From positions 1-55,124 of the forward strand of contig JAJRXK010000033.1 of the NCBI GenBank assembly GCA_024276305.1: 55,124 nt of DNA. The letters are read 5' to 3'. Position numbers and translations under genes: made by a program. Positions within the stretch are counted from its first letter, which is position 1. Each line of letters opens with the position of its first letter. Origin of the DNA: Candidatus Krumholzibacteriota bacterium (lineage in GTDB: Bacteria; Krumholzibacteriota; Krumholzibacteriia; JAJRXK01). Shown here piece after piece: positions 14,645 to 55,124 of this stretch. The notes beneath the pieces are model-generated. The model was not told where the DNA came from. It searched no databases and was given only the letters and a program-made list of their open reading frames with translations.

Positions 14645-15682
14645 TCAGTCCTGGCTCGGCGCGCCCAGGATGGCCAGAGCCGCCGTATTCACCACATCTG
14701 CCGCGGTGCATCCGCGGCTCAAGTCGTAGACCGGATGCGCAAGTCCCTGGACCAGAGGACCGACCGCATCCCATCCCCCGAGGCGCTGCGCAATCTTGTA
14801 GCCGATGTTCGCTGCCTCGAGAGAAGGAAACAAGAACACTTCTGCTCGACCCGCCACTTCGCTCGACGGGGCCTTCTTCTCCGCGACCTTCGGGTCCATC
14901 GCAGCATCGAATTGCAATTCCCCGTCGGCGACCAATCCATGGTCACGCAGCTTCTGCGCGACGGTGGCCATGAGATCGGCCCGAAGGTGGGTCGCACTCC
15001 CCATGGTCGAGAAGGAAAGGCAGGCGATGCGGGGCTCGGTGCCCATGAGACTGCGATAGCTCCGGGCCGAAGCGAGTCCGATCGCGACCAGGGCGTCCAG
15101 ATCCGGTTCGGGAATCACCGCCGCGTCGGCGAAGAGCAACGGGCGCGCGCCCGCCTCGGGGGGCACCATCATGAAGGCCCCACTCACGACGCGAATCCCC
15201 TCGGCCAATCCCACGTGGAAGAGTCCAGCGCGGATCACATCGGCGGTGGGATGATCCGCGCCCGCCACCATCACCTCCGCCTCTCCGCGGGCCACCAGGC
15301 CGGCGCCCAGGTGCAACGGATCGGCGGATAGCACCTTCGCCTCGCCCTGGGTCAGACCCTTGGACCGCCGCCGATCGAAGAGGGCGGCGGCCACTGCCTC
15401 CCGGCGCGGATCCTCGGTCGAGTCGACCACCTCGAAAGCGCCGGGGTCCGCCCCGAGCCCCGAGATCACTCGACGGATCACCGCGGGCTGCCCCACCAGA
15501 ATCGGCCGGGCCAGATTCAGCTCGCGCAGGACGATCGCCGCGGCGACCACTCGCAGGTCCTCCGCTTCGGGCAGGATCACTCGGGCCCGCCGCTCGGCCG
15601 CCTGCCGGCGCCAGACCTCCATCTGCCCTCTTTGGTTCAGGATCTCCTCGAGGCAGGCGGTCGCCAACTCGGACTGCGTCAT
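14645..15682 (-). CDS. pta: Phosphate acetyltransferase (short form)
   Basis: Interconverts acetyl-CoA and acetyl-phosphate. 345 residues, the short single-domain form without the N-terminal DRTGG domain. MVAGADHPTADVIRAGL and the C-terminal QGLAHPVYDLSRGC are characteristic of Pta and distinguish it from phosphate butyryltransferase. No acetate kinase gene is adjacent. It lies seven bases after coaD and is followed 26 bases later by the aminotransferase. Confidence 0.92.
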   Translation of the reverse strand: MTQSELATACLEEILNQRGQMEVWRRQAAERRARVILPEAEDLRVVAAAIVLRELNLARPILVGQPAVIRRVISGLGADPGAFEVVDSTEDPRREAVAAALFDRRRSKGLTQGEAKVLSADPLHLGAGLVARGEAEVMVAGADHPTADVIRAGLFHVGLAEGIRVVSGAFMMVPPEAGARPLLFADAAVIPEPDLDALVAIGLASARSYRSLMGTEPRIACLSFSTMGSATHLRADLMATVAQKLRDHGLVADGELQFDAAMDPKVAEKKAPSSEVAGRAEVFLFPSLEAANIGYKIAQRLGGWDAVGPLVQGLAHPVYDLSRGCTAADVVNTAALAILGAPSQD

Positions 15683-47422: not shown

Positions 47423-48175
47423 TCAGAACTCCTGGGTGAGGGCCAGATGGAGTTTGCCTCGATCGAGGGAGACCCGTTCGGCGAAACCGATGGAGAGGTC
47501 CAGCGCACCGGCCTTGGTGGGAGAGCGCAGACCCACCCCGAAGCCGAAGAGCCATCGCTCCACGGCCTGCAGACCCGCCTCGCTCTCCTGGGTCTCACGA
47601 ATCCATCCCACGTCCGAAAAGAGATAGGCCTGGCCGGACCTCGCCGGACCCAGGACCCACTCCGCGCTGCCGAAGCCCGTGCGGTCCCCGTGGAATTGCT
47701 CTTCTCGATATCCTCGGACGGACCGAGCTCCTCCCACCGTCCACTGTTCTCCTCGGGGAAGGGGAAGCTCCGCGCCCTCCACGCTCTGCCATCGCAGCCG
47801 CACTTCGAGGGCGACGGTCCGAGACCAGGCCGCTCCCCATGCGGTCTCGGCGTCCACGATGGTCTGGGTCGTGGACCGAGAGATGCTTTCGTCGGCCTGT
47901 CCCACGCGAGATCGCTCGGAGATCTGGGCGGCATCCACCCTCGACACCAACCGGCCGTAGACCCCCCGACCCACCGGCCGCTCGACCACCCATCCGAGCG
48001 TGGCCCCCAATCGCCGGCGCCACCGAATGCGACCGTTCTCACCGGCAAAAGTCGTGCGTTCGAATTGGGCGTGCACTTCCAGCCGCCGTCCTCCCCGGCC
48101 CAGGAACTCGGCACTGAGGCCGAGGTCGACGCGATCGTAGAGATCGTCCTCGTGCAGCGTCCCCAACGCGAAACG
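47423..48175 (-). pseudogene. TamA/BamA-like Omp85 protein, barrel part in shifted frame
   Basis: C-terminal beta-barrel of the Omp85 protein that starts at 49128, in a different frame. From about 48175 this frame reads RFALGTLHEDDLYDRVDLGL and continues for about 250 residues of alternating strands to LHLALTQEF, ending in Phe as outer-membrane barrels do. GGARSVRGYREEQFHG near the middle is the Omp85 motif with the lid-lock VRGY/F/ loop. The barrel is clearly under coding constraint, so the break is recent or an error. Confidence 0.8.
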
Positions 48176-49128
48176 AGATCGAAGGGCAGTCCGAAGGCCG
48201 TCGGTTCGACCATCTCCAGTCGCAGACGGCGTCGCTGGACTCCATCGTCCGTCCACTGCCCCTCGAAGGACCGAGCGGTTCCGAAGAGATCGCGAAGGGA
48301 GACCTGGACGTCCCCCGAGACTCGGCTCTGCCCCTGGGCGTCCCTCACGATCCCCACTGCGGCCGAGGCCCGACCGAAACTCTCTCCCTGCCGCACCCTC
48401 ATCTGAACCAACACCGCGTCGTCGCCCTCGTGGGTCGGAGTGACGGCGGCGTCCTCGACCTCCTCGATCAATCCCCGACGCCGCAGACGCTCCTCCGCCA
48501 GACGCAACGCGGCATCATCGTAGAGAGCGTGAAGGCGAATCCCACTGAGCTCGGCCAGGACTTCCGGACGGGTGTGGGTCGCACCTTCGACCTCGACCTT
48601 ACCCACCGTCCGTCGCCGTTCGAGATAGAGGGAGAGAACCAAATCGACCCCCCCTCGGACCGAATCGGCGGCGAGCGACACCAACCCCACACTGGCGAAG
48701 GGATAGCCCTCTTCCCCCAGGGATTGCAGGCCCTTCCGGAGACGCGAGGGCCACTCCAGCGCGGCAACGGGGCTGCCGCGATCGAGGTGGGCCGCGCTGC
48801 CGAAGAGCGCGGCCAGACCCCGGTCGGCGCAGCGAATCTCCACCGATTCGATCTTGGCCCGAGGCCCGGACTCGAGGTGCAGGGATGGCCCCTCCCACCG
48901 CAGACGAGCCCACCACCAGCCTCGGTCCCGCAGGGCCCGGTAGAACTCCACCATCCAGTCGTGGCGAGTGCGGGGGCCCTCTCCCACCACCGAAGCCACC
49001 CATCCTGCGACCTCGTCGGAAGCCACCACCGAGGGCTTGGCCACGAGCTCCTGCCCACGGACTTCGGAGGAGACGAGAACGGTGCCCATCGCCACGGCCC
49101 AGGAGAGGATCCATGCGAGTCTGCGCAT
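48173..49128 (-). pseudogene. TamA/BamA-like Omp85 protein, N-terminal POTRA part
   Basis: Signal peptide (MRRLAWILSWAVAMGTVLVS, cleavage near VRGQ) followed by POTRA-like repeats (about 60-240), including VGKVEVEGATHTRPEVLAEL and RLAEERLRRRGLIEEVE. Around 48173-48180 the frame must shift by one base to enter the barrel; the unshifted frame runs on with low-quality, Arg/Ser/Pro-rich sequence to 47134. The joined protein would be about 569 residues, like TamA. It may help insert the large neighbouring barrel protein, whose stop overlaps its start (TGATG). Confidence 0.82.
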
Positions 49129-52100
49129 CAGAACCTCGCTCGCGTTTCGAGTCCGAGATCGTGGCGCAGAATTCGTCCCGCCTCATCGCGCAACTGATAG
49201 CGCAGGGCTACGCTGAACCCTCGGGCGGAGGCCCACTGCATTCGAAGACTCCCACTGCGGGTGGTGCCCGGGGCCTCGAAGAAGAAGGGGCGTCTCGGCA
49301 GCGGTCCTGCACGCTCGGTCAATTCCGACCACCGCCCCTCCAGAGTCCAATTCAGACCGAACCAATCGGTCGTGGCCGAAGGCCGGGCTTCGATGAGGGT
49401 CTGTCGGATCGACTCGAGGTCCTCGTCACGCAGAGTGTAGCGGAGTTCGAGAGCGTAGCGCCGTCGCGGCCCGGTCCTCAGCCTCAAGGTCGAAGCCGCC
49501 ACGCGGTCGTGCACGCGATAGGAACGCAGCTGGGGGTTGAGGACCGAGGTGGAGCTTCGGTGCCGCTCCTCATCCTTGAGCTGCGATCCGAGGCTCCACC
49601 CGCCCCCCAACTCCACATCGAGCTGGGCCAAACTCTCCTGTCGCCGGGATTCCTCTGGACCTTGGGTGAAACGCTGGTCCAAGAGGTCGGTCCGGTCGAA
49701 GGCCAGGCGCAGGTCGATCCCTCTTCGCTGCCGCAGCAGGTGCAATTCCTCGCGGATTCTCTGCTGACCGAAGAGAGTACTCTCCGGATTGCGGAGCTTT
49801 GCGGGATCGAGGCGCAGCAGTGCTCCGACATCCGAACTCCGGCTGCTCTCGCGAATCTGCAACAGGGATCGACTTTCCAGGCCCGCCACCCAGCGGAAGT
49901 CGCTCCGCATTTGCAGTTGGATGTTGGCCTCGACTTCGGTGGAAGAGACCAGGCTGTCGGTCGGCGTGAAGACGACATTGTAGTCTCCCTGCTTCGCGCC
50001 CACCGCATTGCCCTCGGCATCGTAGTCTCCCTGTCCGAGACCCACGAAGATCACCCGACGTCCCAGGACTCGGGATTGGTCGGTCCCGGCTCGATAGTCG
50101 ACATCCAATCGAAATCCCCGATCGGGGATCTGGTGCGAGGCCTGGATTCGGGCCAAGCGGGTCTTCCCCCGCTGGTCACCCGCCAACAAGCTCTCCCGCC
50201 AAGTGAGGTCCATCCGAGCCCGAGTGTTGGACCAGTTCTGGCTGCGAATCGCCCGCACCAGCCTCGTATCCCTTTCGAAATTCCAGGCCTGGCCGCTGGG
50301 GTCGAGGGAGTCGGCGACATCCCGGCTGTACTCCAGGCGGGTGTCCGCGCCTCCGTCGAGGCCCACCATCCAGCCCCCACTCCGGTAGCCGGTCCATCCT
50401 GCGGTGCGAAAGTCTCGAAAGATCTCGTCCCGGGCCTCCACGAAGGGCTGCCACACGCCGGCCTTCCATTTGAGCCTCAACCTCCGATCCCGGCGGCTGC
50501 TCCGGGCTCCGCTCTCCCGCTCGGCCGTCGTCTGGGCGAAGAGGTGTTCCCAACCCAGATTCCCCACCACTCGGCCCGATCCCGGCACCTCCCACCGCTG
50601 ACCCTGGTAGGTGGTCCCGCGATCGAGACGGCGGAAACCGACATCCACTCGCCGCTCCTTCCCCCGCCACTCGACTCCCGCCTGGGCGAAGGTCTCGTCT
50701 TCGTTGCGCAACTCGTCCTGCAGATTCCAGACGTCGTAGAAGAAGGGCTCGCGGAGCCTCCCCGAGCTGCGGAAGTTGCGCTCGATGCGCTCGACCACGG
50801 CCCGAAGGCGTAGCCCCTTCGCGGTCTCCGAAGACCCCCACCACCCGCTGGCGGCATTCACCCTCCAGGCCGCGCCCTGGTTGTCCTGGTCATCGAGGTC
50901 GCTGAGACGGTTGGCGTCGTGCCGACTCGCGTTGAGCTCCGCCTCGATTCCCGCCCCCGTCGCGACCCTCCCCGCACCGACGCGCACCACTGCATAGTCG
51001 GTCTTCTCGGGAAGATCCAGCCTTCGACCGACCCGGTAGTCCCCATTCCCAACGCCGCGCCACACGAACTCGAGCGCGCCGGTCTCCGTCACCCCCAGGA
51101 GTTCGTAATCTCCCTTTCCGGCTCCCACGAAGACGAAGTCCAGATCGTAGTTTCCGGTGGTCGTGGAATCGGCAATCTCGTAGTAGACGCTTCCGTCGTC
51201 TGCGGTCCGTTGCACGTAGTCACCCTCGCCCGGCGCGGTGAGTCGTACGCCGGAGGAAAGGGCACCGTTGGGATCGTCACCGGCCGCTGCCAGCGCAGCC
51301 CGTTCTTCAGCGCCCAGGGTTCCCGAGAGCGGACGATTCGGGTCGTCCCCTTCGCGCATCAATGCGACGTCGATGCGCACCGCACCCACTCGGAGCGCGT
51401 CGACCAATGTGCCCAGGACACTGCGACGGTAACCGGCCACACTGCCCTCGTAGTCCACGGCGATCCGATTCTCCGGACCAATGGGCCGACTCTCGTTGAA
51501 GGTGATGGTGCCCCGAACATAATCGATGACATAGTCCCGACTGTCGCCGCGGACCTGCAGATCTCCATCGACCCAGACCCTTTCGCTGCCCGCCACGATC
51601 ACCGTCTGCTGCAATCGCAGCCCATCCAGCAATTCATAGGGTCCCTGAACACCTTCGCGGCCCCGGATCTCCACCTCGACCCGTTGTCCTTGGGGAGCTC
51701 CGCCGAGCACCTGCACCGTGCCCCGCTGGCCACGGCCTTCCAACCACAGGCCCTGGAGCTTCCGGTCGTAGGGCAAGAATCGTCCGAGATCGCGGTCCAC
51801 CCGAAAATCTCCGAGCAGCGCCCGTCCCCGTTCTCCGAAGAGCTCGATGCGGACCTCGTCGAGGTCGGTCAGCTCTTCGGTATTGCCCTCGGGAGTGATG
51901 GGAAGGTTCTCGTCGGAGATCTCGGCCCGAACTCCAATGCCCTCGGTGAGTTGTCCCACAATGGAGAGGTTCAATCCCTGGTCGACGGTGGCGTCGCGAT
52001 TGGTCCCTCCGCGGATGGAGACCGTCTTCGACCCTCGAATCTGCAGGTCTCCCAGGGCCGCGCGTTCCTCTCCGTCCCGCCGGGCCACGCCCAGTCGACT

Positions 52101-52544
52101 GCCGACCGGACCCGCCCGCGAAGTCTGCGGCGCAGCGAGCGGCCGCGTCGCATCCCGAAGCACCAGGTGCGACACCAGAGCCGAGGGTTCGTAGCGATAG
52201 CGCACCACCAACGGCGCCGTTTCCTTCGGCGAACGGCGCAGAACCAGGACCCCGCGATCCAACAGGATCCGGTAGTCCTCCCCCTCGACCAGTGCTTCGG
52301 CTCCGAGGGTCACCGAGAGCAATTCGCGGAGTACCGGTTCGCGCAGATCGATCCGGGACTGACCCGGCGCGAGCTGCAGAGAGTCCACTGCGACCGCAAG
52401 ATCTTCGCCGCTGAACCACCGACTGGTATCGGGCAGCGCTTGACGGAGGGAATCCACAGAAGTCGACTCGGCCCGAGCCACGCCTCCCAGACTCGCGAAC
52501 ACGAGCGACAAGGAGATGAACGCTCTTCGGAGTCGTGGCCTCAC
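49128..52544 (-). CDS. Large predicted outer-membrane beta-barrel protein with GDY repeats
   Basis: 1138 residues, function unknown. Signal peptide (about 1-25, VARA/ES). Two copies of a beta unit that looks like GEDYxI-D-GxLxL...RYxYE occur at about 85-120 and 325-366 (second: RDYVIDYVRGTITFN...VDYE). Five GDY motifs, mostly in the form VGxGxGDY, occur at 441-443, 478-480, 501-503, 839-841 and 853-855. From about 535 on, amphipathic strands rich in Arg, Trp and Tyr continue to a terminal Phe (TRARF), as in barrel proteins. The first repeat type recalls SprA-like and other secretion-channel proteins, but I cannot assign a family. Two bases after the NHL gene; GTG start. Confidence 0.8.
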   Translation of the reverse strand: MRPRLRRAFISLSLVFASLGGVARAESTSVDSLRQALPDTSRWFSGEDLAVAVDSLQLAPGQSRIDLREPVLRELLSVTLGAEALVEGEDYRILLDRGVLVLRRSPKETAPLVVRYRYEPSALVSHLVLRDATRPLAAPQTSRAGPVGSRLGVARRDGEERAALGDLQIRGSKTVSIRGGTNRDATVDQGLNLSIVGQLTEGIGVRAEISDENLPITPEGNTEELTDLDEVRIELFGERGRALLGDFRVDRDLGRFLPYDRKLQGLWLEGRGQRGTVQVLGGAPQGQRVEVEIRGREGVQGPYELLDGLRLQQTVIVAGSERVWVDGDLQVRGDSRDYVIDYVRGTITFNESRPIGPENRIAVDYEGSVAGYRRSVLGTLVDALRVGAVRIDVALMREGDDPNRPLSGTLGAEERAALAAAGDDPNGALSSGVRLTAPGEGDYVQRTADDGSVYYEIADSTTTGNYDLDFVFVGAGKGDYELLGVTETGALEFVWRGVGNGDYRVGRRLDLPEKTDYAVVRVGAGRVATGAGIEAELNASRHDANRLSDLDDQDNQGAAWRVNAASGWWGSSETAKGLRLRAVVERIERNFRSSGRLREPFFYDVWNLQDELRNEDETFAQAGVEWRGKERRVDVGFRRLDRGTTYQGQRWEVPGSGRVVGNLGWEHLFAQTTAERESGARSSRRDRRLRLKWKAGVWQPFVEARDEIFRDFRTAGWTGYRSGGWMVGLDGGADTRLEYSRDVADSLDPSGQAWNFERDTRLVRAIRSQNWSNTRARMDLTWRESLLAGDQRGKTRLARIQASHQIPDRGFRLDVDYRAGTDQSRVLGRRVIFVGLGQGDYDAEGNAVGAKQGDYNVVFTPTDSLVSSTEVEANIQLQMRSDFRWVAGLESRSLLQIRESSRSSDVGALLRLDPAKLRNPESTLFGQQRIREELHLLRQRRGIDLRLAFDRTDLLDQRFTQGPEESRRQESLAQLDVELGGGWSLGSQLKDEERHRSSTSVLNPQLRSYRVHDRVAASTLRLRTGPRRRYALELRYTLRDEDLESIRQTLIEARPSATTDWFGLNWTLEGRWSELTERAGPLPRRPFFFEAPGTTRSGSLRMQWASARGFSVALRYQLRDEAGRILRHDLGLETRARF

Positions 52545-52545
52545 G

Positions 52546-53514
52546 TCAGGGATAGAACACTTCGTACACGATCAATGCGTTGCGGCTCGCATCGGCGACG
52601 AAGAGCTTCTGGTCCGCCCCGAAGGCACAATCCACGGGCCGTCGAAGCTCGGTGTCGAGAGAATCACTTCCACCGACGCGCATCGAGAATTTCAGATCGG
52701 GCGTGAGGACCACGACCGCACCGGCACCAGCATCGCAGACATAGACATTGCCGTAGTCATCGGTGGTGATCCCGGAGGGCGCGATGAAGAGCGGCGCAAC
52801 ACTATCCACTGAATTCGTGGCGCCCACCAGGAATCCGGTGTGATCGAAGACCTGCACTCGACGATTGCCCCGATCGCTCACGTAGAGAAGTCCGTCGCGG
52901 GAAAAGGCCACGCCCCGGGGTTCGTCGAATTGACCGGGGAAACTGCCGTACTCTCCCACCACGGTCTCGATCTGGAGGAAAGGGCTGGTGACGATCACCC
53001 GGTGATTGGCCACGTCGGCGATGGCGATCCGCCCGTCGCGATCGAGATCCATGGCCGACGGATCGATGGTCGACGTGGGATCGAGTTTGGAGAGATCCAG
53101 GAATACGTCTCGAAACACCCCTCTCGCGTTGAATCTCAGAATCCGCCGAGAAGCCGCATCGAGAACGAAGAGTCGCAGCCCCCGGGGCACGATGTCGAGA
53201 GGACGCAGCCCATTCGGAGCATCGAGACCTCCCTGATAGAATCCTTCGGCATCGAATCGATGCATGCGTCCGCTGCCGAGATCCGCCAGAATGAAGCTCG
53301 CATCGCTGAGGGTGGTGACCGACGAGACGCGCAACAGCGGCGCCCACGGCTCGGTCCGGAGATTCTCGTAGATCGCGTAGGGAAGGATCGAGGAGGGACT
53401 CAGCATGTGCGCGGAGTCGAGGTGGCTTTCCGGCGGAGGATTGGGAACCGCGCGACAACTCGAGAGGACCCCCGCGAGGGGGATCAGCAGCAGCCAGAGA
53501 CGAGCGCCACACAC
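52546..53514 (-). CDS. NHL-repeat lipoprotein
   Basis: 322 residues from GTG 53514 with GGAG seven bases upstream. The start gives a lipoprotein signal: hydrophobic LWLLLIPLAGVL, lipobox LSSC. Then six or so NHL/beta-propeller blades: DASFILADLGSGRMHRFDAEG, AIADVANHRVIVT, PRGVAFSRDGLLYVSDRGNR, GNVYVCDAGAGAVVVL, KLFVADASRNALIVYE. A lipid-anchored six-bladed propeller probably works in protein-protein or glycan recognition on the envelope. It is wedged between DUF5683-like genes and the large barrel, all within 15 bases of each other. A longer frame reaching 53742 overlaps the upstream gene and lacks a signal. Confidence 0.84.
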   Translation of the reverse strand: MCGARLWLLLIPLAGVLSSCRAVPNPPPESHLDSAHMLSPSSILPYAIYENLRTEPWAPLLRVSSVTTLSDASFILADLGSGRMHRFDAEGFYQGGLDAPNGLRPLDIVPRGLRLFVLDAASRRILRFNARGVFRDVFLDLSKLDPTSTIDPSAMDLDRDGRIAIADVANHRVIVTSPFLQIETVVGEYGSFPGQFDEPRGVAFSRDGLLYVSDRGNRRVQVFDHTGFLVGATNSVDSVAPLFIAPSGITTDDYGNVYVCDAGAGAVVVLTPDLKFSMRVGGSDSLDTELRRPVDCAFGADQKLFVADASRNALIVYEVFYP

Positions 53515-53527
53515 AGTCCGACTCCGA

Positions 53528-54346
53528 TCAGAAGCGATAGCGATAGGCCAAACGCGCGTTGGGATTGGTCGGATTCGGTCGAACGTCCAGAGTCCAGGAC
53601 CGGGGCTTCGTCTCTCCCGTCGAGAATTCCCCGGACTCCGAAGACGGAGGTCCGGAACGTACTGCGTCGATGAAGGCGATGACCCGATTGACCAGCGCGA
53701 AGACGATGACGAAGTCCGCTCGGTCCTGAGCCCCCAAGGCATCGGCCCGGAGTCTCTGGAACTCTCGGAAGCGACGCTCGCTCTGCCATCGCCAAGCAGC
53801 GTCGTCGGGAATCAACGCCGAATCGGGTTGGAGGCCCGCACGGATCTCGGATCGAAGATCGGCGTTGAAATCGTCACTGTCCCGAAAACTCGCCATCGCC
53901 CGCCAATAGTCGTCGGCGTGGTCTCGCGAACCGACACGGGCGAATTGCTGGGCGAAATCGATGTAATTGTCCTCACGAGAATTGGCCTGGAGTTCGGAGA
54001 AGATCCAAGTCCCCCAGACCGCGACCTCCGCGGTGGCGAAGAAGAGAGCTCGTCTGTCGTGACCGCTCCTCCACTGGCTCCACCCCGGCAGGAGCAGAGA
54101 GTAGGCGCCATGTTTGACTCGGGCGAGAGCCTGCCCGTCGAAGGCCGAAGGGGTCTGCGGACCGCTCCGGATCCTGGGAGCTCCCCACACTTGATCCGCC
54201 TCGGTCCGAATCGCGCTCTCGAGGGCTCCTCGATCCTGAGAACGCGTCGAAAGAGGGCCTCCCGCGCCGGCCGCGGTGGCGACACAGACCGACGCCAATC
54301 CCACCCATCGGCCCATCCATTTCCAACACCGTCGACGATCCACCAT
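53528..54346 (-). CDS. DUF5683-like membrane-associated protein
   Basis: 272 residues. N-terminal signal or anchor (about 12-28). The segment AYSLLLPGWSQWRSGHDRRALFFATAEVAVWG is like the PGxGQ-containing hydrophobic motif of DUF5683 proteins. A predicted helical part follows, and the protein ends in a basic/aromatic YRYRF, hinting at outer-membrane association. The start overlaps the preceding gene in a TGATG junction. Function unknown; family members are typical of FCB-group bacteria. Confidence 0.75.
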   Translation of the reverse strand: MVDRRRCWKWMGRWVGLASVCVATAAGAGGPLSTRSQDRGALESAIRTEADQVWGAPRIRSGPQTPSAFDGQALARVKHGAYSLLLPGWSQWRSGHDRRALFFATAEVAVWGTWIFSELQANSREDNYIDFAQQFARVGSRDHADDYWRAMASFRDSDDFNADLRSEIRAGLQPDSALIPDDAAWRWQSERRFREFQRLRADALGAQDRADFVIVFALVNRVIAFIDAVRSGPPSSESGEFSTGETKPRSWTLDVRPNPTNPNARLAYRYRF

Positions 54347-55124
54347 CAGTAGCTCACCTTCCATCCCAGCTGGGCCCCGCTCAGGCCCCTCGGTTCCAAA
54401 TACCATCCACTGCTCGGTCCCCGGGACTCGGCTTGCGCTCCCCCGTAGCGGCCGCCGATGAAGCCTTCCAAGTAGGCGACCTGCAGTGCGCTCACCACCC
54501 GCAGGAGCAGAGCGGTGGTGAGAAAGCGATCGCGATTGCGGAAAGCCGCGTTGCTCGCTCCGCGCATGTCCAAGTACTGCTGGCGCAGAGGAGTGATGAA
54601 ATTCGGGTCTTCGAGAGATCCGCCATTGGCCGGATCGGCGGGATCCCACCCGTCGCGCCAGTACTCCTCCCAGCCCCAGGCAAAGACGTCCCACTTCCCC
54701 AGATTCTCGTACCACTCCCGTTCGTCCTGTTCGCGGCTGACGTAGAGCGCGACATCATTGGTGGTGCTCCCGGCCGGCAATCCGAAGAAACCCTCGAGAT
54801 CCCCGTTGGCCAGGGCCAGCGTCCACTCGTCTTCGCTCCAATGGGCATCGGCGAAGGCCTCGAACTCGGCTTCCCTCTCGTTGCCCTTGTCGCTCTGATT
54901 CTTGACCCCCGCCCAGAGTCCCGCATCGGCGGCGATCATGAACCAACCTCGTCGATAGCCGGTGACGGTTTCGCCCAGACCCGGCACCGCGGCCGAGAGC
55001 AGAACCGGCCACCACCGCCGGGGCGCCTCCCGGTCGAAGGTGGAGAGATATCCCTCTGCGAGGTCCGGGGCCGCAGCCACCGCGAGTGCGGCTCCCTCCA
55101 ACCTCGAACTCTCGGTCCACGGCG
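54346..55124 (-). CDS. DUF5683-like protein, 5' end beyond window
   Basis: At least 259 residues, open at the window edge; no convincing start is present, only a TTG at 55101. The segment LLSAAVPGLGETVTGYRRGWFMIAADAG is the same PGxGxxxxGxxxRG motif as in the next gene, so the two are probably a duplicated pair. It ends with LSGAQLGWKVSY. The middle (about 90-150) is rich in Trp, Glu and Asp. Confidence 0.72.
   Translation of the reverse strand, partial: PWTESSRLEGAALAVAAAPDLAEGYLSTFDREAPRRWWPVLLSAAVPGLGETVTGYRRGWFMIAADAGLWAGVKNQSDKGNEREAEFEAFADAHWSEDEWTLALANGDLEGFFGLPAGSTTNDVALYVSREQDEREWYENLGKWDVFAWGWEEYWRDGWDPADPANGGSLEDPNFITPLRQQYLDMRGASNAAFRNRDRFLTTALLLRVVSALQVAYLEGFIGGRYGGAQAESRGPSSGWYLEPRGLSGAQLGWKVSY

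Follow-up and report, generated by a model that had tools for sequence, protein, structure and literature searches.

Five genes for envelope proteins stand in a tight row at the right end of a contig from a Candidatus Krumholzibacteriota genome, all on the minus strand. The question raised by this row is whether it encodes an undescribed outer-membrane export or surface-assembly machine, as a sequence-only reading had proposed, or forms part of a system that already has a name. The analysed stretch (here the window, 55,124 nt) is the entire contig C16 of the assembly. The genes of the row and the parts of the largest protein are as follows, with the evidence in parentheses.

54346..55122, minus strand: D1, DUF5683-like protein, C-terminal 258 aa, start outside the contig
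53528..54346, minus strand: D2, DUF5683-like protein related to D1, 272 aa (sequence, paralogy)
52546..53514, minus strand: NHL beta-propeller with lipoprotein signal, lipobox LSSC, GTG start at 53514 (PF01436)
49128..52544, minus strand: BAR, giant beta-barrel, 1138 aa, signal peptide, C-terminal F (sequence, AlphaFold)
52173..52382, minus strand: BAR residues 55-124, small domain 'GSexVxvDGxxLxxGxDYxIdYxxGxI', copy 1 (hhalign to SprA, 92%, 5.7e-7)
49131..52043, minus strand: BAR residues 168-1138, predicted transmembrane barrel part (DSSP on model)
51447..51623, minus strand: BAR residues 308-366, second copy of the small domain shared with SprA (hhalign, 95%, 2.1e-8; TIGR04189, 13.6 bits)
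47423..49128, minus strand: Omp85 protein, signal peptide, POTRAs, BamA/TamA-type barrel, frameshifted (POTRA, ShlB/Omp85 matches)

The five-gene row and its smaller proteins

Tight packing with TGATG junctions or gaps of 1-13 bases had been noted before, and the junctions were confirmed on the window sequence: D1/D2 and barrel/Omp85 are joined by TGATG overlaps, D2 and NHL are spaced by 13 bases, and NHL and the barrel by 1 base. Downstream, ligA adjoins omp85. A scan for promoters and terminators gave nothing better than the chance level. A signal peptide, anchor or barrel feature had been ascribed to each gene; this holds for the NHL protein (lipobox) and for BAR and Omp85 (signal peptides), while any signal peptide of D1 would lie outside the contig together with the start of its gene.

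The NHL protein was correctly taken for a lipid-anchored propeller, its NHL repeats (PF01436) scoring 65.2 bits against a Pfam cut-off of 20 and its lipobox reading LSSC. D1 and D2 are paralogues of each other. The window copies have no Pfam match of their own (DUF5683, PF18935, cut-off 26.7 bits), but the label DUF5683-like stands through their relatives, as 30 of the 43 members of the D1/D2 alignment give a DUF5683 match (E up to 1; best 9e-10). The motif S-x-x-x-PG-x-G is a further likeness to DUF5683 proteins, whereas the tandem arrangement of two paralogues and the almost always aromatic C-termini set the present pair apart. An aromatic C-terminal residue was found in 45 of 46 distinct D1 copies, the window D1 among them, and a C-terminal F in all 50 distinct D2 copies. 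Of the 96 distinct copies of either protein, 95 end in F, Y or W, which resembles outer-membrane barrel signals, yet the proteins are not barrel-like. Nothing bearing on the question was found in the literature on DUF5683.

The porU-porV locus upstream

Beyond base 55124, the row can be followed in relatives, where D1 is preceded by PorU sortase, PorV and, in most cases, an M6 protease that bears a T9SS sorting tail. In the window genome, positions 1-8393 of contig C1 (L277) encode the first half of the M6 protease (truncated), PorV, PorU, AccA and then DnaE, the row reading off the contig end, and the gap between C1 and the window was estimated at ~2 kb. In a genome of the same genus, the row runs unbroken from PorU to ligA. 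Because the row of the relatives starts with PorU-PorV and the same genes open C1, the five-gene row makes up the downstream half of a porU-porV locus of the T9SS. The proposal of a free-standing unnamed system was thus not borne out, the row being headed by PorU and PorV of the T9SS.

PorU was identified with NF033707 at 448-579 bits in five genomes including the window genome (cut-off 420), and PorV of the row with family model NF033709 at 185-201 bits (cut-off 90); the window genome's own PorV copy matches PF19572 at 77.5 bits. Almost all copies of the M6 protease have an intact HEFGH zinc motif; the NCBIfam model of the M6 family is named inactivated, and the copies here stay below its cut-off. 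In Krumholzibacteriia, GldM went unmatched and no GldL score passed its cut-off, although SprA, PorU and PorV are present; in control and Ignavibacteria genomes, too, the two models gave nothing or stayed under the cut-off. The window genome has seven genes of the PorV family that pass the cut-off, which suggests several T9SS cargo carriers.

The row is like the PorU-PorV-PorQ-PorZ complex in that PorU and PorV lead it and a propeller protein is present, as in PorZ, which contains propellers. It differs in that the NHL lipoprotein gives no match to the PorZ model (NF052228) and has no T9SS tail, and in that it also encodes a giant barrel together with a dedicated Omp85. The four-protein complex is the T9SS attachment complex, in which PorZ serves PorU (PMC8545088); for the present row, PorZ is an analogy only.

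The order and strand of D1, D2 and BAR are kept in 37 of 37 Krumholzibacteriia loci, and the Omp85 gene comes next in every one of the 37 loci whose contig continues. The propeller was recognised in 34 of the 37; the remaining three belong to family f4, where the slot holds a divergent frame that by eye resembles a propeller, and absence of the propeller from this family was rejected on that ground. Across a set of 73 loci (some genomes represented twice), the order is never broken, and wherever the sequence reaches far enough upstream, PorU, PorV or both are encoded on the strand of the row. The co-occurrence on which the sequence-only reading depended is therefore found: the genes are not scattered but stand together, in order and on the same strand, in all Krumholzibacteriia loci examined. 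The conserved order in at least 37 genomes excludes a chance association.

The giant barrel and its Omp85 neighbour

No Pfam or NCBIfam family was matched by BAR beyond traces of SprA, with which it has small domains in common, and no known transporter family was matched. For the same lack of a Pfam or NCBIfam match, a TonB-dependent receptor or known porin was rejected. The AlphaFold2 model built with 52 homologues reached a pLDDT of 83 and a pTM of 0.75, and ~39 long strands were assigned on it by DSSP. In profile comparison, the N-terminal part gave a weak collinear match to SprA. BAR scores 13.6 bits against the SprA model TIGR04189 (cut-off 200), and its relatives 24 bits at best. Four SprA entries stood in the top 15 Foldseek matches of the model (E 3e-8 to 2e-7, TM-scores 0.22-0.24), with unrelated barrels such as BtuB ranking alongside and with SlpA and the S-layer deinoxanthin-binding complex also among the matches. 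A sequence search of solved structures with the BAR profile returned nothing significant.

The true SprA of the window genome (2298 aa) is encoded on contig C49. A SprA match was obtained in all 58 related genomes, over the cut-off in 55 including the window genome, so BAR is a second, shorter kind. Assignment of BAR to SprA itself was rejected by the cut-off, the length and the separate true SprA; BAR resembles SprA in size and domains, and membership is not claimed. Both are single giant outer-membrane barrels of the FCB group, both carry the small 'SEeVxvDG...DYxIdY' domain, and PorV is encoded near BAR. BAR differs in its 1138 aa (relatives mostly 1,000-1,250 aa) against about 2,300 (2,000-2,400) residues in SprA. 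SprA/Sov is the T9SS translocon, a 36-strand barrel (PMC10994853) formed by a single chain; the ~39 strands of BAR are those of a predicted barrel. No literature on SprA in Krumholzibacteria or Ignavibacteria that bears on the question was found.

The call of an Omp85 insertase-like protein stood as to family, with POTRA over the Pfam cut-off, ShlB/Omp85 matches on the C-terminal part and a BamA-like fold predicted in a relative, but the window gene is frameshifted, its reading frame being split over two frames near 48166-48183 (~48,175). Both halves align to one intact reading frame in the same-genus genome, where they meet exactly (nt 15528/15529, locus L035), and a single frame of 530-700 aa is present in nearly all relatives. 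The frameshift is private to the window genome and probably an assembly error or a recent mutation.

A profile of 26 Omp85 sequences matched BamA at ~1e-40 and TamA at 1e-23. The model of an intact relative (pLDDT 89) has three POTRAs and 16 strands, features shared with BamA/TamA, and compares to BamA with a TM of 0.67. The row's Omp85 differs from BamA in having fewer POTRAs, and the BamA equivalog TIGR03303 reached 34 bits on its N-terminal part, below the cut-off of 297; the genome's own BamA is encoded on contig C25. It differs from TamA in having no TamB beside it, and identity with TamA of the TAM complex was rejected since TamB stands beside another Omp85 gene, the genome's own TamA (contig C75). 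A TpsB/FhaC two-partner transporter, suggested by the Pfam ShlB match on the barrel part, was likewise rejected, as profile and fold favour BamA/TamA and three POTRAs are predicted. Tree analysis separates the Omp85 proteins linked to BAR in the two phyla, together with two from Bacteroidota encoded near BAR, from the genome's own BamA, TamA and two others; the grouping is weak (76/83), with long branches.

Contig C42 (L252) encodes another two short Omp85 proteins, of 574 and 445 aa, each with one POTRA match and ~2 kb apart on opposite strands, and a protein combining WD40-like propeller repeats with an Omp85-type C-terminal barrel is encoded downstream of TamA-TamB (L251:13883-17344).

Spread of the barrel and the proposed working of the row

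BAR was found in 55 of 58 related genomes, usually once, and in all 40 near-complete ones. Homologues, mostly full length, were also found in 175 of 296 evenly drawn Bacteroidota genomes (~59%) and in 35 of 60 relatives of a Latescibacterota genome. The order propeller-BAR-Omp85 is kept in eight Latescibacterota-type loci, one of them with an intervening gene. In most of the 20 Bacteroidota loci sampled, neither the propeller nor Omp85 accompanies BAR; the propeller adjoins BAR in three, and in two of these an Omp85 gene lies ~5 kb away. ExbB-ExbD-ExbD directly follows BAR, and DsbD precedes it, in seven related Bacteroidota genomes (L297-L301, L303, L305), and a link to energy supply is possible there. 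BAR beside porU-porV was not seen in the sampled Bacteroidota and Latescibacterota-type loci, so the T9SS link comes from one phylum. The ancient core is BAR with the propeller and, often, Omp85. Among the loci sampled, the DUF5683 pair stands beside BAR only in Krumholzibacteriia and, not being adjacent to the barrel elsewhere, is not part of this core.

The analysis establishes which genes are present, their order, conservation and spread, the identity of PorU and PorV, and the predicted folds. The row is most likely a T9SS-associated surface module, and the following function is inferred for it. The dedicated Omp85 would insert BAR into the outer membrane, and BAR would then be a large pore or docking platform for T9SS cargo. 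At BAR, cargo that PorV-type shuttles bring and PorU processes would be exported or surface-attached; the lipid-anchored propeller may bind either BAR or the cargo, and the two DUF5683 proteins may be envelope helpers added in the Krumholzibacteriota phylum. That porU-porV-(M6 protease)-D1-D2-NHL-BAR-omp85 is a T9SS locus in which BAR, inserted by Omp85, provides such a pore or platform is favoured tentatively, at a chance slightly short of even. The outer-membrane export or assembly role proposed from the sequence fits, and the propeller-barrel-Omp85 set recurs in another phylum-level group, but the idea of a stand-alone machine is not supported. A bolder form, which is considered doubtful, is that BAR represents a new giant translocon family of Bacteroidota, Krumholzibacteriota and Latescibacterota, as large as the SprA barrel and equipped with a BamA-type insertase and a propeller lipoprotein of its own, that acts as a second T9SS export gate or docking station.

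The main rival, judged rather unlikely, is that the propeller-barrel-Omp85 core works without the T9SS, as an outer-membrane machine for export or surface assembly in its own right, and in Krumholzibacteriia did no more than enter the porU-porV operon. The triad kept without T9SS neighbours in Latescibacterota-type genomes, the propeller adjoining BAR in the three Bacteroidota loci and the ExbB-ExbD-ExbD genes beside BAR in the seven related genomes all speak for such independence, whereas the link to PorU/PorV is without exception in the Krumholzibacteriota phylum wherever upstream sequence is present. BAR might instead have a structural or anchoring role, as a scaffold at the surface comparable to S-layer binding barrels, and not be an export pore. 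The S-layer proteins among its structure matches would agree with this, and a platform next to PorU, which attaches proteins to the surface, is plausible; those matches are weak and generic to large barrels, however, and the scaffold is considered improbable.

It is more improbable still that the row is no functional unit and that its envelope genes, lying between dnaE-accA and ligA, are held in place by general gene-order conservation. Housekeeping genes (ligA and accA) do flank the row, but the five genes stay together in several families where ligA is not adjacent, the triad recurs in another phylum with different neighbours, and the genes overlap by TGATG in the window.

The 36-strand barrel of SprA has been described as FCB-specific (PMC12611786). 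Another giant barrel, predicted to have about as many strands, without a Pfam or NCBIfam model and present in more than half of the evenly drawn Bacteroidota genomes, would mark a large gap in the knowledge of the outer membrane of these bacteria. The conserved link between BAR, PorU, PorV and a dedicated Omp85 offers a testable hypothesis on the export or attachment of T9SS cargo and on the insertion of large barrels and, since many Bacteroidota carry a BAR homologue, a host amenable to genetics can probably be used to test it.
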